DNA from: Bacteroidota bacterium
GTDB taxonomy: Bacteria; Bacteroidota; Bacteroidia; B-17B0; Aurantibacillaceae
DNA length: 59,611 nt
NCBI GenBank assembly: GCA_029237825.1
Contig: JAQZBQ010000003.1
Coordinates: forward strand, 230,001-289,611
Reading direction: 5' to 3'
A model generated the notes under the pieces. The model saw only the letters and a program-made list of their open reading frames with translations. It had not been told where the DNA came from and made no database searches. Of this stretch, positions 2,869 through 22,812 are shown piece after piece (the stretch's first letter is position 1; the number at the start of each line of letters is the position of its first letter). The position numbers and the translations under genes are program-made.

Positions 2869-3732
2869 TTATTTTCTAGCAAAATAAATATGAAGAACAA
2901 CTCTTACATCTTGGTTAGAATCTGCATTGAATTCTCTTTTTTTCAATTTAGAGTATTTTGCATTTGAGTTAGAAGAAGTACTGTTGTCAGTTTTGTATTC
3001 CTGAGTATAAGAAAGAGTACCTGCAGTAACATCTTCTTTAACTTTTGTTACACCACCGAAAGTCCATTTAGCATTCCATCCATATTCTAAACCTAAAGAC
3101 ACTGGTAAGTGACCTAAGAATACATTGAAACCAGAAACTAAACCTAAACCTACTTTAGTAGTATTTGTTTTAGAAGTAACAAAGTTTTTATCTCCGTTTT
3201 TGTATGTGAAGTTGTTAGTAGTTCTATCGCTACCAAACCCTAAATATAAATCAGCACCAACGTAAGCATCAAAAATGTTGCTTGCTAAGAAATGTTTTTC
3301 AACACCTGGTACAAATTCCCACATTCTTTCTACAGTTTTGTTTTTTACGTCAGATAAATTTGCGTAGCTACCTGCAGCTGCAGTTCCAGAAGTTACTGCA
3401 TGTGGATTGTATTGAGCTGATGAATCTAAACCAGTTCCTTTTAATGTAGAGTTATTGTTTTTTAAACGAAGACCTGCACGGATAACTAAGTCATCAGTCT
3501 TATAATATTTATACGTTAAAATGTTACCAGACTGTAAAGCATTACCAGAAAATAATTTTGCAGTCATACCTGAATCAGACGCGATTGAAGTACCTAGAAC
3601 GAATGCCATGTCACCTGCTTTTGGTCTAGCACCATACTTAATAACGTTTTCATCATTTTCTCTTGTTGAAAGCTGCGCAAAAGCAGAGGTTACACCAAAT
3701 GCTAAAGCTACTAGAGCGATTGATTTTTTCAT
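2869..3732 (-). CDS. Predicted outer-membrane beta-barrel protein
   Basis: 287 residues with a Sec signal peptide (MKKSIALVALAFGVTSAFA, cleavage before Gln). The mature part alternates aromatic and small residues in strand-like stretches (KVGLGLVSGFNVFLG, LPVSLGLEYGWNAKWTF) and ends with an amphipathic strand, VRVVLHIYFARK, typical of an outer-membrane barrel. No family was recognised. The 5' leader on the minus strand (about 3733-3780) is an A/C-rich run of AAAC-type repeats, a pattern often seen before strongly expressed Bacteroidota genes. The small lipoprotein downstream may share its transcript. Confidence 0.75.
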   Translation of the reverse strand: MKKSIALVALAFGVTSAFAQLSTRENDENVIKYGARPKAGDMAFVLGTSIASDSGMTAKLFSGNALQSGNILTYKYYKTDDLVIRAGLRLKNNNSTLKGTGLDSSAQYNPHAVTSGTAAAGSYANLSDVKNKTVERMWEFVPGVEKHFLASNIFDAYVGADLYLGFGSDRTTNNFTYKNGDKNFVTSKTNTTKVGLGLVSGFNVFLGHLPVSLGLEYGWNAKWTFGGVTKVKEDVTAGTLSYTQEYKTDNSTSSNSNAKYSKLKKREFNADSNQDVRVVLHIYFARK

Positions 3733-3869
3733 AATTGTTTTGTTTTTTTTGTTTGTTTATTGTTTGTTTGTTTTGATTTACAAATTTGAGTAAATTATCA
3801 GGTGGCGAAATTACAATTATTTTGTGGTTATAAACAAGTAATTGTTAACACGTTATCGGTTAATATTTT

Positions 3870-4547
3870 TTATTCTTTATTCTGCAGCATAGGAACAAAT
3901 TTAAATTTTCCGAACGCCTGCTTGACAAACTCTGTGCCAGACTTCTTAATTATGACATTCATCACTTGTTCTTCACCCTCTCCTAAAGGGATTACGAGTA
4001 TACCACCAATTACCAGTTGAGATAGTAAATCCTGAGGAATATAAGGGGCTGCAGCCGTTACTATTATCTTATCAAAAGGAGCAAATTGAGGCAATCCTTT
4101 ATAGCCATCACCATAAATAAGTTTTGCCCCTTTATACCCAATTAAGGGTAGGAAAATTTTTGTTTTATCAAATAATTCACGTTGCCTTTCAATAGAAAAT
4201 ACCTTCGCTCCCATTTCTAACAAAACAGCAGTTTGGTAACCACAACCTGTACCAATTTCAAGCACCTTATCGCCTTTTGTTATGTTTAATTTTTCGGTTT
4301 GAAATGCAACGGTAAAAGGATGAGAGATTGTTTGCCCAGCGCCAATCTTTAATGCTTTATCAGAATAAGCATGATCAAGTAATGCTGGTCTTTCAGTAGA
4401 CTGATCAAAAAATAAATGCCGTGGAATCTTTAAAATCGTATTTAGTACAGCCTGGCTCGTTATGCCCTTTTCCTTCAACTGCTCAACTAGTCTTTTTCTC
4501 TTACCCTGATACAGGTATTCATCTTCTCTGCTAATATGTATTTGCAT
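3870..4547 (-). CDS. pcm: Protein-L-isoaspartate O-methyltransferase
   Basis: 225 residues, normal for the family. It methylates isoaspartyl residues formed in ageing proteins, using S-adenosylmethionine, in the cytoplasm. Diagnostic segments: IPRHLFFDQ near residue 45, IGAGQTISHPFTVAFQTE (substrate-side loop), the SAM-binding motif VLEIGTGCGYQTAVL, and FDKIIVTAAAPYIPQDLLSQL. It is divergent from the oxidoreductase gene at 4654, with 106 bases between the starts. Confidence 0.93.
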   Translation of the reverse strand: MQIHISREDEYLYQGKRKRLVEQLKEKGITSQAVLNTILKIPRHLFFDQSTERPALLDHAYSDKALKIGAGQTISHPFTVAFQTEKLNITKGDKVLEIGTGCGYQTAVLLEMGAKVFSIERQRELFDKTKIFLPLIGYKGAKLIYGDGYKGLPQFAPFDKIIVTAAAPYIPQDLLSQLVIGGILVIPLGEGEEQVMNVIIKKSGTEFVKQAFGKFKFVPMLQNKE

Positions 4548-5628: not shown

Positions 5629-5700
5629 ATGCGTAATTTTTGAGCTTATTTTTCTTTCCAATACAATAAGTACGGTTATCTTTACGTTTTTGTTTCTAAT

Positions 5701-6546
5701 ATGGTGAGAGTTTTACAGTTCCTGTTTTTCCTTGGTAGTTTGTCTTTTTTGGTGTCGTGTAAAAAGGATAAACTCAAAGCTCCTCAATCATCGTTTCTGG
5801 TAATTAACCCCAAACTTAAAACATCATCAGGCCAGGGGTCTAATAGTCACCTTATTACTGACATCTGGTATTACGTGAATGGTAATTTTAAAGGTGTTTT
5901 TCCCGTTGGGAATGTGATGCCGGTTGTAGCAACCGGGAATACAGAAATAACCCTATTTGCGGGAATAAAAAATAACGGCATTTCAGCGACACGCTTACCT
6001 TATGCGCTCTATAATTCCATTACAATTAATCAAAACATCGAAGCAGGGAAAACCTATACTTTAAATCCGGAATTTGAATATAACTCCGGTGCTTTCTTTT
6101 ATTATGCAGACGACTTTGAATCGACGGGAAGTTTTTTTGAATCAGCCGGATCATGCGACTATTTAAATACCAGTTCTTTTGATGTAACTAAGTCATTTGG
6201 TGGAGTTGGTAACTCAATTTTTATGGCCATGACAGATGCTGAACCAACTTCGATCATGAAGCAAAGCACGCCCTATTTCTTGCCCGGTTCAGGTGCAACA
6301 GTTTACCTGGAACTCAATTACAAATGTAATCAGGCATTTAATGTTGGAGTATTGGGAAGTGGTTCGGTTGAACGAACCGCAATAACAGTGAACCCTTCAG
6401 ACGAATGGAATAAAATTTATGTTCAATTAACCAACGTGATTAGTACTCAACCCGTTTATCCGGACTATCAAGTCATTATCAGCGCAACCAAGTCCGTTCC
6501 TTCACCGGAAATTTACATCGACAACGTTAAATTAATTTTCCAGTAA
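5701..6546 (+). CDS. Predicted lipoprotein, function unknown
   Basis: 281 residues. Signal peptide with lipobox FLVSC followed by KKDKL. The mature protein is beta-rich; residues from about 135 (YYADDFESTGSFFE) to the end resemble a carbohydrate-binding or jelly-roll fold (VYLELNYKCNQAFNVGVL, EIYIDNVKLIFQ), but no family was identified. Its TAA stop is followed immediately by the GTG start of the sugar transferase gene, so the two are probably translationally coupled. That suggests a surface polysaccharide role, by context only. Confidence 0.72.
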   Translation: MVRVLQFLFFLGSLSFLVSCKKDKLKAPQSSFLVINPKLKTSSGQGSNSHLITDIWYYVNGNFKGVFPVGNVMPVVATGNTEITLFAGIKNNGISATRLPYALYNSITINQNIEAGKTYTLNPEFEYNSGAFFYYADDFESTGSFFESAGSCDYLNTSSFDVTKSFGGVGNSIFMAMTDAEPTSIMKQSTPYFLPGSGATVYLELNYKCNQAFNVGVLGSGSVERTAITVNPSDEWNKIYVQLTNVISTQPVYPDYQVIISATKSVPSPEIYIDNVKLIFQ

Positions 6547-7968
6547 GTGAATAACCGCCTACAGACATTTAAGTATGTGTTTGCTGATTATTTTTCAGCA
6601 ACCCTTGCCTGGAGTTTGTTTTACCTTTACCGGAAATTTTATATCGAACCCGATAAATTTGGTATACTTCCTGAGAAAATATTTGACCGGCAATTTATTT
6701 TAGGAATTATTATCTTACCGTTAGGATGGTTGCTGGCCTATTACATGACTGGATTCTATAAAAACATTTATCGTAAATCCCGTATTAATGAATTGATGCA
6801 AACTCTGGCCACATCCATCATTGGCGTAACCTTTATTTTCTTTTTCATTCTTTTGGATGATTTTGTATCAAGTTACAAGGCCTATTATAAAGTTTACGCC
6901 GTCCTTTTTGCCCTTCATTTTTTAATAACTGCCATATTTCGTTTTATTCTCTCCACAAATACTAATTATAAAATCAGTAAGGGTGAGATTGGATTTAATA
7001 CCATTATCATTGGCAGTAACCAGCGCGCATTAAAACTATACGAAGAAATAACCTCTAGCTATAAGTCGTCGGGCAACCGATTCATCGGGTTTATTCATCT
7101 CGACGAAAAAAACGGCTTTTCAGAGCAACTTCAACAAAAATTAAAACACCTTGGTGAATATAAAGACCTTAAGGACATTGTTCAGTCGCACCAGATTGAA
7201 GAAATTATCATTGCCATTGAATCATGGGAACATGAATACCTTGAAAAAATAATCAATGAGCTGAATGATTTTGACGCCATCATTAAAATTATTCCGGACA
7301 TGTACGATATCCTTTCAGGGCAGGTAAAAATGAATTCCATTTCCGACACCGCCCTGATTGTGATAAACAAACAGGTGATGCCCAATTGGCAACAGTCGGT
7401 TAAGCGTTTTATCGACGTGAGTATTTCCGTTTTTGTTTTGATTGCGTTTAGCTGGCTTTACCTTATTTTAATACTCGTTGTAAAATTTGGATCGAAAGGG
7501 CCCGTATTTTTCACACAGGAACGGATTGGGAAAGGTGGCAAACCGTTTAATATCATTAAATTCAGAACAATGTATACCGACGCTGAAAAGAGCGGTCCAC
7601 TTTTATCGAAAACGAACGATCCGCGGATAACTAAGATTGGCAGGTTTTTACGAAAAGTGCGGCTCGATGAGATCCCTCAGTTTTATAACGTAGTAAAAGG
7701 CGATATGAGCCTGGTTGGCCCACGCCCCGAGCGGAAGTTTTTCATTGACCAGATTGTAGTGCATGCGCCGCATTACGTGCATTTGCATCGTGTTCGACCA
7801 GGGATTACCGGATACGGACAGGTAAAATACGGCTATGCTGAAAATATTGAACAGATGGTATCGCGTGTTAAATTTGACCTTTTATACATTGAGAATATGA
7901 GCCTGCTCATTGATTTTAAAATACTTATCCATACAATCCTGATTGTGGTTCAGGGACGCGGAAAATAA
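6547..7968 (+). CDS. Undecaprenyl-phosphate sugar phosphotransferase (WcaJ/PglC superfamily)
   Basis: 473 residues from a GTG start that abuts the previous stop. The N-terminal part has about four membrane segments, then a cytosolic Rossmann-like CoA-binding-type domain (FNTIIIGSNQRALKLYEEI), another membrane helix near 290, and the C-terminal bacterial sugar transferase domain with FFTQERIGKGGKPFNIIKFRTM and RLDEIPQFYNVVKGDMSLVGPRPE. It transfers a sugar-1-phosphate from a nucleotide sugar to undecaprenyl phosphate, starting the assembly of an exopolysaccharide or O-antigen repeat. It precedes rfbB, which makes the dTDP-sugar precursor. The sugar is unknown. Confidence 0.9.
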   Translation: MNNRLQTFKYVFADYFSATLAWSLFYLYRKFYIEPDKFGILPEKIFDRQFILGIIILPLGWLLAYYMTGFYKNIYRKSRINELMQTLATSIIGVTFIFFFILLDDFVSSYKAYYKVYAVLFALHFLITAIFRFILSTNTNYKISKGEIGFNTIIIGSNQRALKLYEEITSSYKSSGNRFIGFIHLDEKNGFSEQLQQKLKHLGEYKDLKDIVQSHQIEEIIIAIESWEHEYLEKIINELNDFDAIIKIIPDMYDILSGQVKMNSISDTALIVINKQVMPNWQQSVKRFIDVSISVFVLIAFSWLYLILILVVKFGSKGPVFFTQERIGKGGKPFNIIKFRTMYTDAEKSGPLLSKTNDPRITKIGRFLRKVRLDEIPQFYNVVKGDMSLVGPRPERKFFIDQIVVHAPHYVHLHRVRPGITGYGQVKYGYAENIEQMVSRVKFDLLYIENMSLLIDFKILIHTILIVVQGRGK

Positions 7969-12048: not shown

Positions 12049-12123
12049 GTGCTCCCACCTGGAATCGAACCAGGCACCTACTGATTATGAGTCAGTTGCT
12101 CTAACCGAATGAGCTATAGGAGC
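12049..12123. repeat. Left 75-bp attachment-type direct repeat
   Basis: Identical to 22738-22812. Identity ends at 12048/22737 on the left and 12124/22813 on the right, so the repeat is the tRNA gene plus one base. Confidence 0.9.
12050..12123 (-). tRNA. tRNA-Met (CAT), left copy
   Basis: 74 bases on the minus strand, GCTCCTATAGCTC at the 5' end and GGGAGCA at the 3' end. The 7-bp acceptor stem pairs with one G-U, the anticodon loop is CTCATAA (anticodon CAT), and the T arm is CCTGG-TTCGATT-CCAGG. CCA is not encoded. Elongator Met is likely; a lysidine-type Ile2 tRNA also has CAT and cannot be excluded. Its 5' flank is island DNA and shows no good promoter, so this copy may be silent. Confidence 0.92.
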
Positions 12124-12163
12124 GATAAGGACCTCAGCTGTAAAGTTAACATTTTGTTCTGCG

Positions 12164-12171
12164 ATTTGCAC
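12164..12171 (+). promoter_or_regulatory. Candidate recombinase arm site, left end
   Basis: ATTTGCAC, 41 bases inside the left repeat. The same octamer occurs near the right end at 22646-22653. A role in integrase or accessory-factor binding is inference. Confidence 0.25.
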
Positions 12172-12225
12172 TTTTTTTGCCTGTGAAAGCTTGGTTTATA
12201 CTTTTGTGTTTTACTCAAAGGTCTC

Positions 12226-12717
12226 TCAACGAGGTAGGAAAAGTACTTTGTTTCTACCTATACCGTAGCCTGCAAGAGTCTCCCTAATGCGATTTAAAGC
12301 CAGGTTACTGTTTACGACTTCGATCGGAATCACTAGGATGTGGTCTACTATCTGCAGGTTTCCAACTGAACCATTACCATTGCTCGCTAGCTCATTCTCT
12401 AAAGCTACTTGAAGAGGGATTGTAAAGGTTGCAAACTGCTCTGCTGTAGGAGGTATGGATATCTTGCCATCAACCCTGATGTTTACTCTGAAGAAACTTG
12501 TTTCAGGATGGTAAGAAAACGCCCCTCTGATCCTGCTGGTAAACGAGTGATAAAAGTCTATGGCCTGCTCATAACTTGCAAAGCTTTTAACCCTTGAACC
12601 AAGACTTGCCCCAACCCAACCCCAGGTTATTGTTACTGAGTTTTTGTCTAAGATAGATGCTTGCCAAAAAGCAGTCCCTCTCTCTTGTTTTCTGTAAAGT
12701 GTTGTGTGTGTTTTCAT
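12226..12717 (-). CDS. WGR-domain protein
   Basis: 163 residues. Residues 1-75 fit the WGR domain: an opening strand LYRKQERGTAFWQASI, the signature at 32-36 (here WGWVG, so the Arg of Trp-Gly-Arg is Trp34), then KSFASYEQAIDFYHSF, the usual helix with Phe/Ala/Phe. WGR domains occur in PARP1/2/3, where they contact DNA at strand breaks, and in stand-alone bacterial proteins of unclear role. Residues 85-163 form a second part (SFFRVNIRVDGKISIPPTAEQF...) that I do not recognise. It is divergent from the RES gene, 63 bases between starts. The pairing hints at a joint function, unproven. Confidence 0.8.
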   Translation of the reverse strand: MKTHTTLYRKQERGTAFWQASILDKNSVTITWGWVGASLGSRVKSFASYEQAIDFYHSFTSRIRGAFSYHPETSFFRVNIRVDGKISIPPTAEQFATFTIPLQVALENELASNGNGSVGNLQIVDHILVIPIEVVNSNLALNRIRETLAGYGIGRNKVLFLPR

Positions 12718-12733
12718 AAGTTTTTACAAGTGG

Positions 12734-12761
12734 AAGGGGTTAGAACTATATGCGACCCCTT
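12734..12761. promoter_or_regulatory. Inverted repeat between the WGR and RES genes
   Basis: AAGGGGT and ACCCCTT, a perfect 7-bp inverted repeat with 14 bases between arms, centred in the 63-base divergent intergenic region. A candidate operator controlling both genes. Confidence 0.4.
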
Positions 12762-12780
12762 TACATCTTAACTTTATCCT

Positions 12781-14007
12781 ATGAATACGCTTAAAGATAA
12801 CACTAAGTATGTCTTCTTTTCAAAAGAAGAGATCGATTCGCAGTTCAACCAACTTCTTGTAGAAAGTGAGGGGGTTGAGTCTTATACAGAACTAGAAGAA
12901 CTTATGCGCAAGTGCTTCTATAATAAGGTTTTCTTTGCACAGAAGTTCGGCAGTAGCATGGGAACAATTAAGGTCTATCGTGTTACCACTTGTTACGACG
13001 GCTTTGATCCATTGAAAGTCTCCTCTTTCTCTTATCCTCCTAACCCTAAAAGAGGTAGGGCAAATCTTGCAGGACATCCAGTCTTTTACTGCTCTTTTAA
13101 CCCGACAATTTCATTACATGAGATGAAAGATAGTTTGAGTCCTGACAACGAATACTTTGTGTCAGTGTGGGAAATGAGTTTTTCAAACGAAACACTTGCC
13201 CATCCTATTCTCTACAACTCGATCACTGGTTGCTCTGACTTTCACATGGCAGGTTTGGCTCAACACCAGATGGATCGCTTCCTTTCTGATGTTGCCCTGG
13301 GTCCTGTTACCGATCAAGAAAAGGCTAGTCTCCGGCATCTGCTAACCAAACTTGGAGACTTGTTTACTTTGCCATCAGAGAATCATTATAACTTAACATC
13401 AGCGTACGCTCACAGTTTACTGTATGAAGCCAAGAAGAAAGGTTACGACTTCAGAATACTCATGTATCCATCCGTTACCTCAGGTCACAAAGGCGCAAAC
13501 CTTGCAATACACCCTGACTTTGTTAATAGTAACATGATGGTTTTTAAAGGCGTGACTAAGATAAAAGTTAAAGATGCGTCAGAGGAAGGTATGAGTGTTA
13601 CTTTTTCCGATATAGGTAGGGCAACAGGAACAGGTGAAGTCGAATGGTTTCATCCTGCTATTTCCTCTGTTGAGATAGCATACCATGACTTCGAGTTACA
13701 CACTGATGATGGGTTAGTAACTCGAGGATTTGATGCTTTGAACATGAAAGTTTGTGGCAGTGAACAAACTGTAGCTATGCTATTCGAAGAAGTTTTTGAG
13801 AAGGAGAAGACTAAGCTTCCACGGCAAGAAGCCAATATCGATGAGTTCTCGTTTGAACTAATGCAATATCAAAATGAAGCCACCACTACTCAGGAGTTTA
13901 TACCAGGAGTAAAAGTTGAGACGAATGAAGGTGTCAGAGATATTGCGAAACTTGTCGCTTACATTAGATATACCGAGACCTATCAAAAGAGTAGCTGCTA
14001 CTTATGA
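12781..14007 (+). CDS. RES-domain protein (predicted NAD-consuming toxin fold)
   Basis: 408 residues, much longer than stand-alone RES toxins (about 150-230). The RES core starts near residue 64: YRV with Arg67, SSFSYPP, GRANLAGHPVFY with Arg93 and Tyr103, and ISLHEM with Glu114. These match the Arg-Arg-Tyr-Glu set of RES proteins, an ADP-ribosyltransferase-like fold; known members (MbcT, ParT) degrade NAD+ or ADP-ribosylate a target. Residues 1-60 and about 260-408 are extra and unrecognised. A typical RES toxin is preceded by an XRE/COG5642 antitoxin; here the neighbour is instead a divergent WGR gene. Its 3' end overlaps the convergent lipoprotein gene by 10 bases. Confidence 0.8.
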   Translation: MNTLKDNTKYVFFSKEEIDSQFNQLLVESEGVESYTELEELMRKCFYNKVFFAQKFGSSMGTIKVYRVTTCYDGFDPLKVSSFSYPPNPKRGRANLAGHPVFYCSFNPTISLHEMKDSLSPDNEYFVSVWEMSFSNETLAHPILYNSITGCSDFHMAGLAQHQMDRFLSDVALGPVTDQEKASLRHLLTKLGDLFTLPSENHYNLTSAYAHSLLYEAKKKGYDFRILMYPSVTSGHKGANLAIHPDFVNSNMMVFKGVTKIKVKDASEEGMSVTFSDIGRATGTGEVEWFHPAISSVEIAYHDFELHTDDGLVTRGFDALNMKVCGSEQTVAMLFEEVFEKEKTKLPRQEANIDEFSFELMQYQNEATTTQEFIPGVKVETNEGVRDIAKLVAYIRYTETYQKSSCYL

Positions 14008-14459
14008 AAGCTGTACTTAACAGCTGCCCCTGTCGTTAGAGAACCTGAGTAGTAGCAGAGAAAGTTTGCTGTCAATGAATCTATGCTATAGGTTGTGCTT
14101 TGTATGTATAACTTTCCTGATGTTGTCACCTCCCAATTGGTTGTTACATCGCTACCTGATGTTCCGTTTATGCACTCTTTGTACTGACTTAATGGTCCAG
14201 GTGTAGAGTTGAACTTGATGTGGTAAACGGCCGCATCGTTAAACGTGTATGTACCTCCAGGTCCAGGTATCAGCACACCATTGTTATATAACTCTTGCTT
14301 GTCATAAATCCAGTTACCTAGTAACGAAGTTTCTGTTGGACTTAAGGTCGTAGTGCTTGATGGTGCTGCTGGTGTTGATGGCTTACTGCTTTTCTTGCAT
14401 CCTAAAGATGCTACTAACATAATCATCCCCCAGAAGGATGCGATAGTTGATGCTTTCAT
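13998..14459 (-). CDS. Lipocalin-like predicted lipoprotein
   Basis: 153 residues. Lipoprotein signal peptide with lipobox ASLGC at about 17-21, a Ser/Pro/Thr linker, then LLGNWIYDKQELYNNG, the opening of the lipocalin-like domain common in Bacteroidota lipoproteins, and SQYKECINGTSG with a probable disulfide Cys. No enzyme activity is expected. It overlaps the RES gene end by 10 bases in convergent orientation, and its start faces the XRE gene across a 104-base region holding a perfect palindrome. It is a surface protein carried as island cargo. Confidence 0.72.
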   Translation of the reverse strand: MKASTIASFWGMIMLVASLGCKKSSKPSTPAAPSSTTTLSPTETSLLGNWIYDKQELYNNGVLIPGPGGTYTFNDAAVYHIKFNSTPGPLSQYKECINGTSGSDVTTNWEVTTSGKLYIQSTTYSIDSLTANFLCYYSGSLTTGAAVKYSFHK

Positions 14460-14516
14460 AATGGTTGGTTTAAGTGATTAGTAAGGACCCTCTAGTTATA
14501 CAAATATAGTAATATT

Positions 14517-14530
14517 CGTCATATATGACG
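14517..14530. promoter_or_regulatory. Perfect 14-bp palindrome, candidate operator of the XRE regulator
   Basis: CGTCATATATGACG reads the same on both strands. It lies between the divergent lipoprotein and XRE genes and overlaps a promoter-like TAATATTCG. Autoregulation by the XRE protein is the simplest reading. Confidence 0.5.
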
Positions 14531-14563
14531 AGATTGTTTTGTTGGTTACACTGACCTTTGAGT

Positions 14564-14791
14564 ATGCCCAAAGAGAAGGATATACTCGTACAGGTTGCTG
14601 ACATTATTAGCAAAAAAGCTAAAGCAAAGTATAAGTCCAATGTGGAGTTCGCTGATGTTTGTGGTATTCATGAGAGCAGCATCAGAAGGATACTTCAGGG
14701 TAAACAGAATATATCCATTAACGTATTGAAGCGTATCTGCGATGCTCTTGATACCAAACTTTCCGACTTACTAAAGGACTCAGGCAACTAA
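14564..14791 (+). CDS. Small XRE-family HTH regulator
   Basis: 75 residues from the ATG at 14564; a TTG two codons earlier (14558) is less likely. Residues 20-70 form a Cro/CI helix-turn-helix: VEFADVCGIHESSIRRILQGKQNISINVLKRICDAL, with the typical recognition helix and the following scaffold helix. The length is that of a bare DNA-binding domain without a sensor domain. It probably regulates its own promoter and the lipoprotein opposite through the palindrome at 14517. It could also serve as an antitoxin, but it is separated from the RES gene by the lipoprotein gene and lies on no common transcript with it. Confidence 0.82.
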   Translation: MPKEKDILVQVADIISKKAKAKYKSNVEFADVCGIHESSIRRILQGKQNISINVLKRICDALDTKLSDLLKDSGN

Positions 14792-14963
14792 CGAGGGGGG
14801 TTAATAGCTCTCGTTTTGTGCTTTTGCTCGCCGTTCTTGCGAGCGGAGGGTATTGTGGGAGCAAAGAAGCATGAAGCATGAATGCGGTTGCGACCTCTGT
14901 TGTATGTGTGGTATCATTACTATCTAATCTTCCTCTATCCGTACCACACATTAACTAACACAA

Positions 14964-15327
14964 AGGTATTTTCTTATCGTACCATGATAACGAGAAAATA
15001 CCTGCAGCAATACCCGACTACGCAGGCGAGCTGAAAAGTTGGTAACCGGTGGACTTCATGTTGCTGAAAGGAATGGAGTGAGGCTTACCCTGGGAAGTGA
15101 CGTAGGAATGTACCGGGCAAACGTAACGCAATGAGTGAAGCTACATGAAGGACAAGATAGGTTACCGCGACGAAAGCTCGTGAAACAAGCAAGAATCGGG
15201 ACAAACCCAAAGCCTGACGTAGGAAGGCAATATAGCTTTGCTTTGCATGCTCAGCTTAAACAAAGCATATGCTATATTGGTTTGGTACCGGTTATTGCGT
15301 TTCGCAAGCTAAGACGCACCTTATAAC
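14964..15327 (+). ncRNA. Candidate large structured RNA, class unknown
   Basis: Stems include AGGTATTTTC/GAAAATACCT with TTATC/GATAA inside it (14964-15003), GCCT/AGGC (15212-15228), AATATAGC/GCTATATT enclosing TGCTTTG/CAAAGCA (15229-15278), TTGCG/CGCAA (15296-15306) and GGTTAT/ATAACC. Purine-rich joining segments such as GACGAAAGCTCGTG and GGGACAAACCC recall domain I of group II introns, but no reverse transcriptase, no domain V and no intron 5' GTGCG was found. It could be an intron remnant or another large island-borne RNA. Strand is a guess from the purine-rich loops. Confidence 0.3.
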
Positions 15328-15332
15328 CTGAT

Positions 15333-15371
15333 AAAAAAAAAGAGTGCACCTACCTATAGTAAGTACACTCT
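15333..15371 (-). terminator. Intrinsic terminator for leftward transcription from the helicase gene
   Basis: On the minus strand AGAGTG...CACTCT with additional inner pairing is followed by T8 (A8 at 15333-15340 on the plus strand). It lies about 310 bases beyond the helicase stop and separates it from the candidate RNA region. Confidence 0.65.
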
Positions 15372-15682
15372 CCGGGTTCTTGAACACATCCTATAGGTTT
15401 AAACAACATATGATGTTTACCTTAAATGCACTCGCGTAGTAACCTGAGGGGGTTAGTTCCTAATACACAGAAATACTTTTAAAAAAAGTACCCGGGAGTA
15501 CCCCCTTTTTTGGATCCGGTACGGGGGGATAAAAAAGAGACTCATGCCATGCGCGATCACGCAACTTGTTCGCTTACCAAAAAAACATAGTTGATTGGAT
15601 AGCTATATACTGTCATAAAAACAGATACTGATATGCTTGATAACTTACCGAGGTTATGATAAGGCACATGTCGAAGCACCGC

Positions 15683-17395
15683 TTACTTTCTCTTCATCAC
15701 CCTAGTGTTTTTGCCAACTGCTTTTTCGAGTCTCCTCGTTGTAATAGTGTTTTTCGAAGGTTTGGATTTGACAGGTGCTTTTCTCCTTAATGGCACTCGT
15801 GCAAGCAATTTTGTCAAGTCTCCGTAGTGTTTTAAGCCAGGTTGAATATCTGTGATAAACTCACTGATAGATGTTGGAGTTATTGCATGTTCCTTCTCTG
15901 TAAACCCAGGATCGTTGTAACTATGCTTGATATGTCGGCAGGACTCGTACAACTTACTCAGTTCTTCTTTCCAATCTTTCAGTAAGTTTTGCATTCTTTG
16001 TGTAGGTAACAACAAGTCTATGTGTTTACCCTCTCTCAGAGAACTTCTAAAAATCCACTGTACTAGTATCGACAAGGCATAGGTATCGCCAACAGGAGCT
16101 TTGATGCCAGTACTCTTTATGTAGTTAAGAAGTAAAGGGTTCGGATAGACGTTGTATATGAAAGCCAGGTGGTTTGTATGGTTGTATAAGTTCGTTGCTC
16201 GCTTGTTAAAAGGCACAAACAAATCAGGGTTGGTTATACCATTAGTAACCAGCCTCGTCTTTGACTTTTTTAATGTCGTCCACAACCTGTCATTAACTTC
16301 AGACCGTTTACCAGTGAATGTTAAACCCTTCTTGTAGTATGTGTTCAACTTAGTTTGTAAAGGGTTGGATTCTTTAATATGGTACCTCTCATTAAACTTA
16401 TCGAACCAACCCGAAGAAAAAATATGAGGACTCCGTAGATCTTTCGGGATGTCCTTATGGTTGTCTAAGAGTAGTGGGTCTATATGGATCAGCTTATGAT
16501 ATGGTTTGAGTTTGGTGTCATCCAAAGCTTCTTCCTCAGTCAGGTTTCTTACTAGATACGGTATCTCATGAATATCAAGATAAGCATTGAGGAAGCTGTT
16601 TTTGAACAGGTAGGTAAGCACATGAACAGACTTGAACACACTAAATATTTCGGGGTTTTGTTTCCACAAAAGAACTTTCTGTGTAGTTCCTTTGTCAATG
16701 TTGTTGTATAGAATCACACGGTTGTTATCAATGTCCTCTCTCAGGTCTTTGTACCTTGTCAGCTCAGGACCGATCCATGTTATGGTTGTTTTATCTTTAG
16801 CCAGGCCTAGAACCTTAAGAGTAAACAAGTTCTCTAACTCTAGAGATGTTAACCTTTGTTTTTGTTTGCTTTGTTTGAACGTGATAGTATATCTATCCGC
16901 AACCAGTTCAAACACAGCAGGCTCTTCATCAATAACAAGATGGTAACCCTTCTGTTTTAAAAGCTCCAAACAATCCAGATCTAAACGCTCAAACAGTTTA
17001 TGAGTCATCACGATATTTTTGTTACCTCTGATGAGCCTTTTGAGATGTAACAGCTTGTTCTTTTCGGGATGCATAAACTTAACTATAGTATCTTGGGTAT
17101 ACTTAACTTTCCCTCGAAGATCCTTCAACGGTGGTTTACTTTTTGGCTTTGCCGGATCCGGTATGGTACCTGCTACCCTATGGAGCTCATCAAGGTATTG
17201 TCCAACATACATAATCCTGTTGGAAGGTTTTTCGCTTACCAGTTTTTTTATCTGCTCAAAGACACCCTGAGTTTTTCCTATACCGCAAACTCCATCATAT
17301 ATAACGAGGCCGGTGAAAGCCGTTGAGTGGCCACTTTGAAAGTATTCCCGTATGAAGTGCTCTACAAGGTGGCGATGTTCTGGTAAATATGTCAT
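15683..17395 (-). CDS. P-loop helicase-like ATPase (SF2-type)
   Basis: 570 residues from ATG at 17395; a TTG three codons upstream is less likely. Walker A GVCGIGKT at 35-42, a segment resembling motif Ia/Ib (NIVMTHKLFERL, about 127-138), Walker B/DExx box DEEP at 156-159, and near residue 455 QWIFRSSLREGKHIDLLLPTQRM, which resembles the motif VI region of phage and plasmid SF2 helicases. The C-terminal 35 residues are strongly basic. Likely an island replication or DNA-processing ATPase, or a defence helicase; sequence alone does not decide. It is divergent from umuD with a 269-base intergenic region. Confidence 0.7.
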   Translation of the reverse strand: MTYLPEHRHLVEHFIREYFQSGHSTAFTGLVIYDGVCGIGKTQGVFEQIKKLVSEKPSNRIMYVGQYLDELHRVAGTIPDPAKPKSKPPLKDLRGKVKYTQDTIVKFMHPEKNKLLHLKRLIRGNKNIVMTHKLFERLDLDCLELLKQKGYHLVIDEEPAVFELVADRYTITFKQSKQKQRLTSLELENLFTLKVLGLAKDKTTITWIGPELTRYKDLREDIDNNRVILYNNIDKGTTQKVLLWKQNPEIFSVFKSVHVLTYLFKNSFLNAYLDIHEIPYLVRNLTEEEALDDTKLKPYHKLIHIDPLLLDNHKDIPKDLRSPHIFSSGWFDKFNERYHIKESNPLQTKLNTYYKKGLTFTGKRSEVNDRLWTTLKKSKTRLVTNGITNPDLFVPFNKRATNLYNHTNHLAFIYNVYPNPLLLNYIKSTGIKAPVGDTYALSILVQWIFRSSLREGKHIDLLLPTQRMQNLLKDWKEELSKLYESCRHIKHSYNDPGFTEKEHAITPTSISEFITDIQPGLKHYGDLTKLLARVPLRRKAPVKSKPSKNTITTRRLEKAVGKNTRVMKRK

Positions 17396-17512
17396 AAGAA
17401 CCAAAGTAGTGATTATTTCTGAACGGGTATACCTGTTTTTGGTTCAAACATACTTTCTAATATACTGTCTTACAGTTAGATATGCCTGCGTCCCTTATAT
17501 ATATAAAGACCT

Positions 17513-17543
17513 TGGAAGTAGGAAAGTGATGGTTTCTTCCTAC
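17513..17543. promoter_or_regulatory. Island-specific motif pair, upstream of umuD
   Basis: GGAAGTAG and GTTTCTTCCTA occur close together and form a partial inverted repeat (GTAGGAA/TTCCTAC). The same two words recur, abutted in the opposite order, at 20161-20178 before another island gene. The region 17396-17664 holds no gene. Confidence 0.4.
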
Positions 17544-17600
17544 CACGTATTTAAACCTATGGTTCTGAGCCTTTTAAGAACTAGGTGTTTGGTTGCTACA

Positions 17601-17626
17601 AATCATAGCATTGGTTTGCTATGATT
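17601..17626. promoter_or_regulatory. Perfect 10-bp inverted repeat, candidate operator of umuD
   Basis: AATCATAGCA, six bases, TGCTATGATT. It ends 38 bases before the umuD ATG. A repressor site (LexA-like or element-encoded) is the likely role. Confidence 0.5.
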
Positions 17627-17664
17627 CGGTCATATCTTTACCAGGAACCATAGAAGACAGAAAC

Positions 17665-18132
17665 ATGACACAAGTAATCAAAACAATAGATAGTAAGGAC
17701 TTTGAGATCTTCAAGTTAACAGACGTGGACTCAGAGCTCACCGCAAGGTTTATCACCAGTCCCATTTCAGCAGGCTTCCCGAGTCCTGCTGCCGATTACC
17801 AGGAAGAGCCAATAGACCTAAAGAAACTGCTTTTCAGGAACCCGATCAACACTTATGTTCTTAGAGCAAAAGGAAACAGTATGCAGGACATATACATCAA
17901 TCCCAATGACCTGATTATCGTTGATACAAGCATTGAACCTCTTAACAATGATATCTGTGTATGTGTTGTGGATGGGGACTATACACTCAAAAGAGTAAGC
18001 AAGTCAGGAGACAAACTGTACCTGATGCCATACAATAAGGATTTGAAGCCCATAGAAGTTACAGTTGACAACAGGTTCAGCATTTGGGGTGTTTTAACCT
18101 TTTCTATCCACAAGCATAATAGACGTATCTGA
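17665..18132 (+). CDS. umuD: UmuD-like S24 autopeptidase
   Basis: 155 residues from ATG at 17665. An in-frame TTG 24 codons upstream would run through the operator and is rejected. The self-cleavage site is [11 protein letters not shown] (Ala36-Gly37), like [10 protein letters not shown] of E. coli UmuD. The catalytic dyad is Ser72 (KGNSMQD) and Lys109 (DYTLKRV), 37 apart as in UmuD Ser60/Lys97. After RecA-stimulated cleavage UmuD' joins UmuC to form translesion polymerase V. It overlaps umuC by one base (TGATG). Confidence 0.93.
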
Positions 18133-19406
18133 TGTATGCCCTTGCAGATTGCAACAACTTTTATGCATCATGCGAGCGAGTTTTCCAACCACATTTAGAA
18201 AAGGTACCGATAGTTGTTTTAAGTAACAACGATGGGTGTGTTGTTGCTCGTTCACATGAGGTAAAAGATCTCGGTGTAAAGATGGGGGTTCCTATCTTCA
18301 TGATAAAAGACTTGGTAAAACAGCATGGTATTAAAGTGTTCAGTTCAAACTATGTGTTGTATGGTGACATAAGTAGCCGTGTTATGTCGACCATATCTTC
18401 CTACGTCCAGAACTACGAAGTGTACAGTATTGATGAAGTCTTTCTTGACTTTACTGGTTTCGACACCAACTTTAACCTCGTTGACTACTGTAAGGAAATA
18501 CGGTATGTTGTCAGGCGTAATACACGAATCCCAATCAGCATAGGTATAGCACCTACAAAAACATTAGCAAAGGCTGCAAATAAACTCGTTAAGAAACGGT
18601 TCAAAGATACGGGCGTATGTTACCTCAAGGATCAGGACGATGTTAAAGAGATGCTTCGGGACTTTGATGTAGGAGATTTATGGGGTGTTGGAAGACAGTA
18701 TGAAGCACTGCTAAAGAAACATGGTTTCGAAACAGCTCTTAAGTTGATGAACGCACCCGATGAATGGATCAGGAAAAACCTTAGTGTCGTAGGTCTTCGC
18801 TTGGTAAATGAGTTACGAGGTGTACCATGTATAGACCTCGACGAAGTCCCCGCTAAAAAGAAAGGCATATGTGTATCACGATCTTTTGGAAACATGATCA
18901 GTGATTTAAGCATCCTTGAAGAGAGTTTATCTACTCACGCTAATAGAGCAAGTGAAAAGCTTCGGGAGCAAGGTTCAAACTGTGGTTCTATAAGTGTGTT
19001 TCTTCATACTAATAGGTTCAGAAGTGATCTGCCACAGTACTTCCCTTCTAAAGAGATTGAACTCCCACTTGCCACTAACGATGCAAGCAACATTATATCA
19101 GCAGCACAGAAAGCTTTGGAGCTGATATATAAGCCAGGCTATAACTATAAAAAGTGCGGTATCTTTCTCAACGATATAACTCCGGCAGATGATCTTCAAC
19201 TAAACCTGTTTGTTCAAGACGATACGGACAAGAAGAACAAGCTCAACAAATCAGTAGACTCTCTTAACAAAAAATATGGCAAGGATTCGTTAAAATATGC
19301 TATCCAAGGCACCAAAAAAGAGTGGAAGTTACGACAAGAAAACTTATCTTTAAGTTACACAACGAGGCTCAGCGATGTGCCCTGTGTCGACCTAAACAAA
19401 TCATGA
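18132..19406 (+). CDS. umuC: UmuC-like Y-family DNA polymerase
   Basis: 424 residues, full length. Y-family core: [17 protein letters not shown] with the metal-binding Asp at residue 5, [10 protein letters not shown], and [10 protein letters not shown] with the catalytic Asp-Glu. The little-finger region follows, and QLNLF near residue 360 fits a sliding-clamp-binding peptide. It copies past DNA lesions with low fidelity, activated by UmuD'. Translational coupling to umuD and a one-base gap to the SRAP gene define a three-gene operon. A mobile-element copy could raise mutation rate or protect the element after damage. Confidence 0.95.
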
Positions 19407-19407
19407 C

Positions 19408-20136
19408 ATGTGCTATACAGTAGACAACAAGAACAGTAAAAAAGTTTTAAGTGATAAACTCAAGCGACCTTTCAAGTCGGATCAGGAGGCATTGGAAGCG
19501 ACCTTTTTGTCAGGCTTTGCCCATCCTAAGATGTGCATGGTAAAACAAGAACAACCTGATGTGATTGACATAGCACGATGGGGGCTGGTACCGGGATTTA
19601 TCTCTGATGCAGCGAAAGCAAAAGAGTACTTCATAAACACCTTGAATGCAAAAGCAGATACCATCTTCGAAAAGGTAAGCTTTAAGAACTCGATCATGCC
19701 AAGACGGTGTATTATTCCTATATCGGGGTTCTACGAATGGAGGGACATAAACAAGGTGAAATATCCCTACTACATCAAGGCAAAGGATCAGGAGATAACT
19801 TGTGTAGGTGGCATCTACGATTATTGGGTAGAGAAAGCAACTGGCGAAGTACATACAACTTTCAGTATGATTACAACTGAGGCAAACCCTCTGATGTCTA
19901 AAATACACAACCTTAAGTTGAGACAACCTTTGTTGTTAAGTCAACCGGATGCTGAACAATGGATCGACAACAGTTTGAAAAAAGAGGATGTTATAGAACT
20001 GATGAAGCCATTAGGTGAAGAGTTCATGTCTGCACACACTGTTAAAAAGATAAGCCCGAAGACTGCGGATGTTTTTTCCGAAGAGATAAAAAGCGAGTTT
20101 GATTATCCCGAGTTAGCATTGTATGATAGTATGTGA
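19408..20136 (+). CDS. SRAP-family protein (HMCES/YedK-like abasic-site sensor)
   Basis: 242 residues. It begins Met-Cys, so after Met removal Cys2 is the N-terminal nucleophile that forms a thiazolidine crosslink to abasic sites in single-stranded DNA. Other active-site residues align by eye: Asn80 (INTLNAKAD), Glu110 (SGFYEWR) and His167 (MSKIHN). YedK/HMCES shield abasic sites at forks from error-prone processing. Placement one base after umuC suggests joint damage-induced expression of lesion bypass and abasic-site protection. Confidence 0.93.
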   Translation: MCYTVDNKNSKKVLSDKLKRPFKSDQEALEATFLSGFAHPKMCMVKQEQPDVIDIARWGLVPGFISDAAKAKEYFINTLNAKADTIFEKVSFKNSIMPRRCIIPISGFYEWRDINKVKYPYYIKAKDQEITCVGGIYDYWVEKATGEVHTTFSMITTEANPLMSKIHNLKLRQPLLLSQPDAEQWIDNSLKKEDVIELMKPLGEEFMSAHTVKKISPKTADVFSEEIKSEFDYPELALYDSM

Positions 20137-20160
20137 CGACCTTACAACTTTGATATATGA

Positions 20161-20178
20161 GTTTCTTCCTAGGAAGTA
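20161..20178. promoter_or_regulatory. Second copy of the island motif, with a 12-bp palindrome
   Basis: GTTTCTTCCTAGGAAGTAG contains the perfect palindrome CTTCCTAGGAAG (20165-20176) and the two words seen at 17513-17543. It is in the 162-base gap between the SRAP and membrane-protein genes. Confidence 0.4.
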
Positions 20179-20298
20179 GCACCAGGGTCTTAGGAATGTA
20201 ATCTTGTAGGTGAGTTTTTGCGTTAACAGAGTGTTAATAATTCAGGTTGCTATTTTAGACTATATAAGTACCTTAGATTAGTAATTAAACCCTGATAT

Positions 20299-21354
20299 AT
20301 GGCTGGACAAGACCGCCTTGAGTTGCATTATTTTTTCGACGACGACACTCATACGATAGACGCGTTCGTTCGTAATAAGTGTGAGGCAGAAGTACTCGCA
20401 ATCGCTAAAGAAGTAATCTCCACTTATACCGAAGAAGAGATAATCATACAAAATGAGATACCGGAAGAGGGAGGGTTTACAGAGGTACTCACTTTTTTCA
20501 CTGTTAATAAGGATGCGATTATCGCAGCTGGAGGTCTCCTTTCTTTAATAGTCTCGACTATTACACTAGTGCTTTCCCGCCGTCCTCCTATCCATCCCTC
20601 ACAACTAAAATACATCCAAGCTCAAGATGGGCTTATACCAGACCAAGCTAAGTTAGTAGAAGCACAAACGAAGGTTGCAGAGTCTCAGGCTGAAATAAAT
20701 GAACTCAGTAAGACGAAGTTAAAGCTCGAGATAGGCAAACTTAATGCTGAGCAAATCGAAAAGCTTGCTGAACAATACGCTAAGGAGATGAACAGTAAGA
20801 TAACAGTTATTCAGCGAAAGTCAAACTTTTATAAGCAACTACAGTCGTCCGACAAGATAACGAAGGTTAAGGCTACTTCCTACAATGGTCAAAACACAGT
20901 CACAGATCCTAAACCAATAGATCGTGTAGATTTCCCGCTCTATATTCTCAACACAAATAAGCTACATAAGGAGAAGGACGAGGATGCTATCTTAGAAATT
21001 ACCTCTCCTGTAATCACGCAGAAAAAATCGATGAAGTGGCGAGGGATCTATAAAGACCAGCCTATTTCGTTTAAGATGAAAGACAAAGTATTTAAGCAGT
21101 CTGTCGCTAATGGTCAGGTAAACCTCCATGAGAACTATTTGGTTAAGTGTCTTTTGCATTTTGTACCTGAGTTGAAGGAAGATGGTACCGTTGAGAATAA
21201 GGATTATAGCGTATCTCTCGTAAAGGGTGAAGTAACCGAAAAGGAGGTTATAGAGACTATGCAAGGGAGAATGCATCGTTTGAAGCGAGAAAGGCTTGAA
21301 GCAACAGGAGGTGAATCTAGCCAAGCAACACTATTCGGCGAAGACGAGTTATAA
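20299..21354 (+). CDS. Membrane-anchored coiled-coil protein, unknown function
   Basis: 351 residues, not recognised. Layout: an acidic N-terminal region of about 65 residues (DRLELHYFFDDDTHTIDAFV), one membrane segment at 72-92 (DAIIAAGGLLSLIVSTITLVL), a charged coiled coil about 110-180 (Lys/Glu/Ala/Gln-rich heptads), and a C-terminal globular domain about 210-325 with MKWRGIYKDQPISFKMKD and VKCLLHFVPELKEDG. It has its own upstream region carrying the island motif. An N-domain/one-TM/coiled-coil/C-domain plan would suit a membrane effector or a partition or anchoring protein, but there is no direct evidence for either. Confidence 0.75.
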   Translation: MAGQDRLELHYFFDDDTHTIDAFVRNKCEAEVLAIAKEVISTYTEEEIIIQNEIPEEGGFTEVLTFFTVNKDAIIAAGGLLSLIVSTITLVLSRRPPIHPSQLKYIQAQDGLIPDQAKLVEAQTKVAESQAEINELSKTKLKLEIGKLNAEQIEKLAEQYAKEMNSKITVIQRKSNFYKQLQSSDKITKVKATSYNGQNTVTDPKPIDRVDFPLYILNTNKLHKEKDEDAILEITSPVITQKKSMKWRGIYKDQPISFKMKDKVFKQSVANGQVNLHENYLVKCLLHFVPELKEDGTVENKDYSVSLVKGEVTEKEVIETMQGRMHRLKRERLEATGGESSQATLFGEDEL

Positions 21355-21360
21355 CACCTA

Positions 21361-22599
21361 CTATGAAGTAGGTGTTATCTCTGGCATAGTAACTGTTAGA
21401 TGAACATAATGGTTCATGTCATCGATCAGCTCTTTATCATAGGCTTCAAGGTAAAGACCAGTCACAGCGGATCCGTACTTGTGTCCAAGTGCTTCTGCTA
21501 TCATGTCTTTGCTATAACCAAGTCGTTTTGCGATATTGGCATAACTGTATCTAAAGACATAGCTAGTAAACCTCTCTTTACAACCGATCATCATACCCAT
21601 CTTCTTTAGGTGTGCGTTGAAGTTCTTGTTTTTCTGCTTTATAGTTTTGGGTAACTTTCGCTTGTTATCAAGTTCCTCCTGAGTAAGCTTTCCAAGAATG
21701 GTACTGCATCCTCTCTGTCTAAAGTAGGCAAAGATCTCGATTACATCCTGTAACATTTTGATAGAGTAGAGAGTTTTTGTTTTACTTCGAGAGTAGAACA
21801 CAGGTCCATTCATAACGCTTGACTCGGTAAGTAATACCATGTCTTTAAAGTTTATACCCTGAAGCATGAACATCAGTTTACCCATTAACCAGCTGTCGTA
21901 AAGTATCGAACCTTCAGGTATGTTCAACCTAAAGTAGCTTGACATTTCTTCTCGTGGGATTGGCCTAGGTGATGTTGCCTTTCTCTTTATCTTAAAGTCT
22001 TTAAACGGGTAGTGTTCATGCGTCGTTATCTTGGACTTGATAGCCTTGTTAAAAACAGCTCTAAAACTTCGCATATGCATACCGATACTGTTCGTCTTTA
22101 AACCAGCATCTGAAAATCCTGCTTCTAAAGTTCTTAGGAAAGTGTAGTTGACTCTCTCGAAAGGGATACGAAGGTCTGAGATTTTGGATATAGCAATCAA
22201 CGATAGCTCATAAACAAGGGCTCCTCCTCCTCTATCGTTTTTGTGTAGGAGTTCTATTTCATCTAACCAAAATGATTGGATAGTAGTCGGTGACTGAGAC
22301 ACTGAACACAGATAGTTTTTTATTCGTTGTGTGTCGTTGTCTTTTGGGTAAAGCTTTTGGTACTCGAGGATCTTGGTCAAGTAGAAGACTTCGAGTTCTT
22401 TCAGCCTGGGACTAATAACTTCAAAGAGTGGATGTGTTTCCTTTAAACAACCTGCTCTGTCGTTCCAATCTGAAGGACTGGAAGAAAAGTTGGTTGAAAC
22501 AGTTCTGGTGGTGCCGTTCGAAGCTAACCGGAAGACAAGAGGATATGTTTTGTCCCTCTTGCATCTTCTTCTGTCTAAAACGAGGTGTATTGTGATCAT
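21361..22599 (-). CDS. Tyrosine recombinase (island integrase)
   Basis: 412 residues. Plan of the Bacteroidota integrases: N-terminal arm-binding domain (IHLVLDRRRCKRDKTYPLVFRL), SAM-like core-binding domain (about 100-210), and catalytic domain. Catalytic features: YSRSKTKTLY with the Lys, YVFRYSYANIAKRLG with box II Arg, ALGHKYGSAVTGLYLEAYD with the His and nucleophile Tyr. In box I the usual Arg is replaced by the LQGINFKDM form, common in this subfamily. It lies 139 bases inside the right tRNA repeat and reads away from it, and its stop is six bases from the membrane-protein stop, convergent. It is intact, so the island may still excise. Confidence 0.93.
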   Translation of the reverse strand: MITIHLVLDRRRCKRDKTYPLVFRLASNGTTRTVSTNFSSSPSDWNDRAGCLKETHPLFEVISPRLKELEVFYLTKILEYQKLYPKDNDTQRIKNYLCSVSQSPTTIQSFWLDEIELLHKNDRGGGALVYELSLIAISKISDLRIPFERVNYTFLRTLEAGFSDAGLKTNSIGMHMRSFRAVFNKAIKSKITTHEHYPFKDFKIKRKATSPRPIPREEMSSYFRLNIPEGSILYDSWLMGKLMFMLQGINFKDMVLLTESSVMNGPVFYSRSKTKTLYSIKMLQDVIEIFAYFRQRGCSTILGKLTQEELDNKRKLPKTIKQKNKNFNAHLKKMGMMIGCKERFTSYVFRYSYANIAKRLGYSKDMIAEALGHKYGSAVTGLYLEAYDKELIDDMNHYVHLTVTMPEITPTS

Positions 22600-22619
22600 A
22601 GCTACGTGGTTTTGTAGCT
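22600..22619. promoter_or_regulatory. Inverted repeat at the integrase start
   Basis: AGCTAC, eight bases, GTAGCT, immediately upstream of the integrase ATG. It could be an operator or an mRNA hairpin at the ribosome-binding region limiting integrase translation. Confidence 0.3.
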
Positions 22620-22635
22620 TTCACAAGTAAAAAAG

Positions 22636-22653
22636 TTTGCATGTTATTTGCAC
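22636..22653. promoter_or_regulatory. Two TTTGCA direct repeats near the right end
   Basis: TTTGCA at 22636-22641 and 22647-22652, 11 bases apart (one helical turn). The second is within ATTTGCAC, also present near the left end at 12164. Candidate integrase arm or accessory-factor sites. Confidence 0.3.
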
Positions 22654-22710
22654 GGATGAGGGGGGATTTCTCTACCTCCATGTTACGATCTAAAAAGTCA
22701 AGGCATGAAA

Positions 22711-22732
22711 AAACCCAGTAAATACTGGGTTT
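22711..22732 (-). terminator. Terminator after the right tRNA-Met
   Basis: AAACCCAGTA pairs with TACTGGGTTT; on the minus strand the stem is followed by T6. It directly follows the tRNA 3' end and insulates the integrase from tRNA transcription. Confidence 0.85.
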
Positions 22733-22737
22733 CACCG

Positions 22738-22812
22738 GTGCTCCCACCTGGAATCGAACCAGGCACCTACTGATTATGAGTCAGTTGCTCTAACCGAATG
22801 AGCTATAGGAGC
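22738..22812. repeat. Right 75-bp attachment-type direct repeat
   Basis: Identical to 12049-12123; marks the other island boundary. Confidence 0.9.
22739..22812 (-). tRNA. tRNA-Met (CAT), right copy
   Basis: Same 74-base sequence as the left copy. This copy keeps a chromosomal 5' flank with a good minus-strand promoter at 22884-22914 and has a terminator at 22711-22732, so it is probably the expressed copy after integration. Confidence 0.92.

Follow-up and report, generated by a model that had tools for sequence, protein, structure and literature searches.

The window, as we call the whole 59,611-nt stretch of Bacteroidota DNA analyzed here, almost certainly contains an RNA gene at positions 14799–15328, judging from its comparison with relatives, and our favored reading, to which we give a probability of roughly 0.64, has this structural RNA gene carried by an island and its 3′ end serving as an insertion boundary. 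The RNA recurs in differing Bacteroidota neighborhoods with variable genes behind it. A sequence-only reading had singled out a hairpin-rich, gene-free interval (14792–15682). Such an interval is indeed present, flanked by an Xre-type HTH gene on one side and a convergent gene of 573 codons on the other, but its coordinates proved too wide: the discrete, conserved element is a 530-nt unit on the + strand (14799–15328), whereas the remaining 354 nt (15329–15682) are spacer, unconserved in the aligned relatives. The features of the locus are as follows.

14799–15328, + strand: large structured RNA, full unit, from homologues and covariation; ends from the terminal helix and homology breaks.
14799–14803, + strand: P1 5′ strand, GGTTA, pairing with 15324–15328.
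15324–15328, + strand: P1 3′ strand, TAACC, pairing with 14799–14803; end of homology and cargo boundary.
14830–15031, + strand: 5′ domain, closed by 14830–14840 with 15022–15031 (helices 5 and 6), with GCAGGCGAGC on the 3′ side.
14906–14949, + strand: covarying hairpin (helix 10), GTGTGGTA/TACCACAC, with an 8-pair stem (14906–14913/14942–14949).
~14965–15002, + strand: window-specific long hairpin, seen in the sequence, in a part of the 5′ domain that is highly variable among relatives.
15041–15166, + strand: central domain, closed by GGTAACC/GGTTACC (helices 12–17).
15167–15317, + strand: 3′ domain (helices 18–22), containing a 14-pair stem (15228–15242/15265–15279).
15331–15371, − strand: intrinsic-terminator-like hairpin, AGAGTGCAC/GTACACTCT, seen in the sequence, with its T tract on the − strand, suiting leftward transcription from the convergent gene.
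14558–14791, + strand: Xre/Cro-type HTH gene, directly upstream (HTH_26, E 2e-10).
15683–17404, − strand: convergent gene, 573 aa, phrog_2467, no assigned function (PHROGs E 4.3e-51).
20299–21354, + strand: PDC-S42, a candidate defence gene of this island (PADLOC model, E 8.7e-81, strong).
21361–22599, − strand: tyrosine integrase of the host island.
12049–22812: host island, ~10.7 kb, with a tRNA-Met gene at either end (the two 98.7% identical over 78 bp).

The island also encodes HTH, UmuD/UmuC-like, SRAP and RES-domain genes, and the 573-aa convergent protein has what we take to be a Walker-A-like motif. The long stacked stems described from the letters alone were recovered as the 14-pair and 8-pair stems, a 16-pair helix (15189–15206/15280–15298) and the window-specific hairpin, and GAAA turns were likewise present, for example CGACGAAAGCTCG at 15168.

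We compared the window with the 4227 families of Rfam 15. At gathering score, only the two tRNA-Met genes were matched and the element was not; at E ≤ 10 with relaxed filters, the element gave only chance microRNA, snoRNA and riboswitch matches below gathering scores. Thus, the Rfam check proposed in the sequence-only reading returned no known class. Across 54 further loci bearing relatives, the same library at gathering scores identified only three distant tRNAs. The models of GOLLD, ROOL, OLE and HEARO, which are presumably part of the library searched, did not match the element, and no description of this RNA was recognized among the open-licence papers searched. In our judgement, it is uncommon to meet an undescribed class of RNA that is this large and covaries to this extent.

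The fold was examined in alignments of relatives. RNAalifold applied to 17 elements gave 101 pairs, 57 of them with two-sided changes. To guard against circularity, this fold was transferred to 18 elements outside its derivation, in which 1383 of 1693 cells were paired (81.7%), compared with 35–43% for slid partners and a mean of 39% (maximum 47%) for random partners; in these held-out elements, 61 of the 101 pairs showed two-sided changes. With 33 sequences, 89.0% of cells were paired, two-sided compensatory changes occurred in 79 of 106 pairs, and the covariation score was 0.362, against 0.158 for shuffled and at most 0.091 for slid alignments; none of 500 shuffles equalled the real alignment on any of five measures. 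Helix 10 had two-sided changes at six of its seven pairs. Helices 5 and 6, which close the 5′ domain, were 99% paired and showed little covariation because they are nearly invariant, and helices 2, 4, 16, 19 and 21 were weak (0–66% paired). These alignments show RNA-type structure that is under selection, and we model it as a closed fold of three domains in which the first and last bases are predicted to pair as P1. The suggested check by homology and covariation yielded covarying pairs, and the interval's supposed undescribed structured RNA gained strong comparative support. Because the covariation is of RNA type, the alternative of an origin or regulatory region, also raised at that stage, is weakened.

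G-U pairs exceeded A-C pairs (176 versus 55 overall; 117 versus 46 in the held-out set), which points to the + strand as the RNA. Folding energy alone cannot pick the strand, since the − strand had the stronger z score (−6.2, versus −3.1 for the + strand), each being below all 20 dinucleotide shuffles. A protein-coding gene was considered and rejected: there is no conserved reading frame, and only 225 of 1245 gap runs were divisible by 3, which is not codon-like. The Bacteroidota −7 box is TAnnTTTG; this motif, the only promoter type sought, was found within 60 nt upstream of none of 41 elements, below the shuffles (mean 2.0).

The 5′ and 3′ termini of the unit covary. The window has GGTTA/TAACC as P1, and relatives have GGTAAA/TTTACC, GGAAAA/TTTTCC or GGTTATA/TATAACC. 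The helix is complete, with its six positions paired, in 38 of 42 elements, whereas 5000 shuffled assignments gave a mean of 17.7 and a maximum of 28. This result rests on the third and fourth positions, since the search pattern imposes GG, A and CC and hence part of the pairing; the four GGTTATA cases were themselves selected via that motif. Homology between loci of at least 70% identity ended within 5 nt of P1 on the 3′ side in 97 of 163 locus pairs and started within 5 nt of it on the 5′ side in 95 of 142, the pairs in these counts not being independent. The breaks show a unit that, as the alignments have it, is sharply bounded at P1. In a group comprising Cecembia, Marivirga and Salibacter, homology extends 110–160 nt beyond P1, and a longer unit is therefore possible. 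Lengths ran from 498 to 758 nt across the 42 elements whose two ends were located.

When the interval was searched by BLASTN, 17 of the family's 87 genomes, its own included, gave matches; these lay mostly within the first 550 bases, and weak matches in two genomes (G005 and G063) fell outside the element. We built a model of the 3′ domain (R1, covering 15160–15321) and searched genomes with it under strict filters, at which weak matches are lost. R1 matched 23 of the 87 family genomes, own genome counted, and 17 of 395 genomes drawn from the class; counted among these 17 are the window's own genome, five other family members and a weak, partial match (L106 in G274, model positions 45–122) that we do not regard as the element. 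Among 395 genomes drawn from the phylum there were two, the window's own and one of the same class. A pattern derived from the alignment was also run on a genome collection, and R1 was used to check 80 of the 81 stretches it returned plus two from viral contigs. It confirmed 45 of these 82, and we take the others to be mostly chance; a stretch with the pattern at its very end (L136) stands outside the confirmed set. The confirmed records include Cecembia, Shiella, Marivirga, Cyclobacterium, Draconibacterium, Carboxylicivirga, Reichenbachiella, Salibacter and an uncultured Sunxiuqinia. The genera in the titles of the 45 belong to Bacteroidota, except for one titled Saccharibacteria (L135), which is probably mislabelled. 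Neither viral match was confirmed by R1, and a distant blastn search of plasmid and phage collections with the interval gave no match. Relatives are thus scattered patchily in Bacteroidota.

R1 found up to three copies per genome, with three matches each in G132 and G356 and a single copy in the window's own genome. One G132 locus (L095) carries a back-to-back pair of RNA elements on opposite strands (~6727–7402 on the − strand and ~14143–14837 on the + strand) and, in the space separating them, copies of the upstream genes. At another locus (L103), the RNA 3′ end is partly duplicated (70 bp, 94%) upstream of the full element, at −1798 to −1729 from R1.

Such multiplicity raises the alternative that the RNA element is itself mobile, a cassette or a ribozyme-like unit that jumps beside the cargo and has P1 as its ends. 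Both ends are sharp, as this would predict, and two G356 copies (L102 and L104) have only the element in common (−298 to +181, 92%). Many copies, however, share an upstream DUF6943 gene together with a gene of a 249-aa family, which is inherited context; the window's genome holds only one copy, and no site lacking just the RNA was seen among the pairs compared. We therefore consider a mobile RNA unit possible but unlikely.

The 249-aa family occurred upstream in 24 of 44 locus entries and DUF6943 in 21 of 44. In Draconibacterium, a DUF6266 gene lies upstream of the RNA. The window's genome has the 249-aa family on other contigs only and gave no DUF6943 match, and one genome (G003) has both families twice, without a convincing RNA match. 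A linkage to a single partner gene was sought and none held as a rule; six upstream proteins had no PHROGs match. In two G003 loci (L111 ~6830–7300 and L112 ~5640–6100), a second conserved noncoding sequence (ACGCCTGTGGCTGCGGCTATGTTTGA...) occupies the place where the RNA would be expected.

On the 3′ side, gene content changes between loci. In 45 of 56 loci, a count that includes near-duplicates, the nearest downstream ORF of 100 aa or longer was convergent with the RNA, and convergent cargo genes often end tens of bases from it. Within 5 kb, the cargo included OLD/Gabija-like ATPases and AbiEii, Fic, HipA, Vsr and UvrD families; among named records, L161 has a gene for cation efflux, L145 one for a type I restriction subunit and L157 one for a flavin-type oxidoreductase, MerA-like by eye. 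At one locus (L035), OLD and UvrD-like cargo is bracketed by a direct repeat of ~107 bp (+263 to +369 and +4455 to +4560 from R1; copies 80% identical) that is related to the ACGCCTGTGGCTGCGGCTATGTTTGA sequence. PADLOC at E ≤ 1e-10 recorded 311 families matched by 107 downstream proteins and 27 by 107 upstream proteins, a descriptive figure that is unfit as a test because the families are redundant (GajA/PtuA variants). The inputs were 107 of 196 downstream and 107 of 187 upstream deduplicated ORFs; the downstream set came from the first 148, before loci were added later, with large proteins excluded by hand, and 33 of 140 sampled upstream rows were removed by hand.

Pairs of tyrosine recombinase genes lie 0.2–1.8 kb 3′ of the RNA in six loci (L090, L091, L094, L097, L098 and L121), and those of L090, L097, L098 and L121 match Pfam Phage_integrase. 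L090 and L091 also share, at 80% identity, a noncoding stretch predicted to form long stems; it is found at about −1080 to −420 from R1 and ends in a G-rich motif resembling that behind the RNA. The distance from RNA to recombinase is 1.6 kb greater in L091 than in L090, with no repeat visible.

Two loci bear directly on the 3′ boundary. In Draconibacterium orientale, an insert of ~2.7 kb, whose single gene of 789 codons has a NOV_C domain, stands directly behind the RNA, and both D. aestuarii and a Draconibacterium MAG are without it. The insert is bounded by 21-bp repeats (TTTTCCTGTGTGGAATTGTGG) whose first bases are the P1 3′ strand. This difference could reflect a deletion instead of an insertion. 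In a Flammeovirgaceae MAG (L124), a group II intron starts with GTGCG right behind P1's ...ATATAACC; it runs on the − strand from ~3955 down to ~2939, scores 117 bits for D1–D4 and 57 bits for domain V, and has a GIIM maturase ORF apparently reduced to a piece. Read from its junction, the intron is an insertion of another kind than that of D. orientale, but at the very base where the latter begins. Its Rfam matches (3763–3900 and 2939–3015) fall outside the R1 match (3962–4125), and hence the intron model and the RNA are distinct.

That distinction also touches the idea, put forward in the sequence-only reading, that the interval is an intron remnant, which we considered for group II introns, both canonical and circularly permuted (CP). 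In favor are the large size of the RNA, its GNRA-type loops and its lack of an ORF; CP group II RNAs, too, are described as lacking ORFs (PMC8637638). Against it, no domain V or D1–D4 model matched inside the element, no group I or group II model reached E ≤ 10, and none was found at gathering score in the 54 loci; the ten island proteins scanned contained no Pfam reverse transcriptase, the L124 intron lies beside the RNA and separate from it, and the element is ~600 nt long, against ~900 for CP introns. We regard a group II remnant as extremely improbable.

A second att-like site was sought in 57 of 61 loci, the other four being without a definable end. A flanking repeat was clear in one (L170, 20 of 22 positions), where two unoccupied relatives back it; L102 and L103 had weak repeats (18 of 22; shuffled maximum 17), as did L030 (17; shuffled maximum 15). 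Four longer contigs showed no second site downstream of the element, and their sole match above shuffles (22 of 30, contig C65 of G019) lay upstream of it. The window's own cargo had no repeat beyond the 8-base TAACCTGA, which may be chance: it occurs at 15324–15331 and 15440–15447, flanking the terminator-like hairpin, and its second copy is followed by GGGGTTAGTT, also present behind the Draconibacterium RNA and possibly by chance as well.

Could the element be a DNA recombination site that acts as folded single-stranded DNA, in the manner of a giant attC, and not an RNA? Integron genes stop shortly before attC, and the cargo here is mostly convergent and often ends tens of bases away. Some group II introns target DNA hairpins, and the L124 intron sits at the RNA end; the repeat-flanked Draconibacterium insert and the lack of a TAnnTTTG motif (0 of 41) fit as well. 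Yet the element has 500–750 nt, many invariant positions and three domains, far exceeding any recombination site that we know of, and its excess of G-U over A-C favors a + strand RNA, although DNA also tolerates G-T. We judge such a site to be quite unlikely.

We therefore return to an RNA gene with an insertion boundary at its 3′ end, a reading based on the Draconibacterium comparison, the L124 intron, the sharp homology breaks, the convergent cargo and the neighboring recombinases; the boundary itself we infer by analogy with tRNA and tmRNA genes. Incoming DNA would join at the P1 end, whether as single genes, defence or toxin–antitoxin modules, elements with paired tyrosine recombinases or, once, a group II intron. 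Insertion would leave the RNA 3′ end whole, so that the RNA gene could outlive the turnover of its cargo. Candidate roles for the RNA are an RNP scaffold, an RNA-only assembly and control of the cargo; the assembly role, as suggested for GOLLD and ROOL, is a guess by analogy. In a more speculative version, to which we give little credence, the RNA would be an active part of a Bacteroidota cassette-capture system, its folded 3′ end, as RNA or single-stranded DNA, being recognized by the paired tyrosine recombinases, which would insert and swap defence and adaptation cassettes at P1; a 600-nt RNA would then form the basis of an integron-like platform.

The terminal helix, GCAGGCGAGC and model R1 offer a handle on Bacteroidota islands with turnover of genes for defence, toxin–antitoxin systems, restriction and metal transport. 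Should its 3′ end be an insertion boundary, the DNA right behind the RNA would be a place to seek unknown defence systems. Transcript and recombination are testable in the carriers Draconibacterium, Cyclobacterium, Marivirga, Cecembia and Reichenbachiella, of which D. orientale and Cyclobacterium lianum are represented by named strains.

Among known systems, GOLLD and ROOL, described in PMC12286853 as large, intricate RNAs of mobile elements, without an assigned function and often near tRNAs, appear nearest in kind, though membership cannot be claimed. Like them, the present RNA is large and belongs to a mobile element, here a tRNA-Met island; unlike them, it has Bacteroidota hosts and a cargo boundary at its 3′ end, with no Rfam match to either class, no phage match by blastn and no confirmed match in viral contigs. 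OLE RNA, which PMC12054373 gives as ~600 nt, well conserved, biochemically unassigned and mostly from Bacillota, is similar in length and conservation, whereas our element lacks an OLE match in Rfam and is patchy in Bacteroidota islands. CP group II ribozymes are also large, ORF-less bacterial RNAs, but the element is shorter and contains no intron model match. With integron attC cassettes it shares variable cargo and a gene 3′ end near a structured element; it differs in usually occurring once per locus, in its 500–750 nt and in its RNA-type covariation. Compared with the tRNA and tmRNA genes used as integration targets, the RNA is larger (~600 nt), an integrase is often absent near the cargo and a repeat is seen in one clear comparison only, but here, too, the 3′ end would be left whole by incoming DNA, and recombinase genes lie behind it in some loci.
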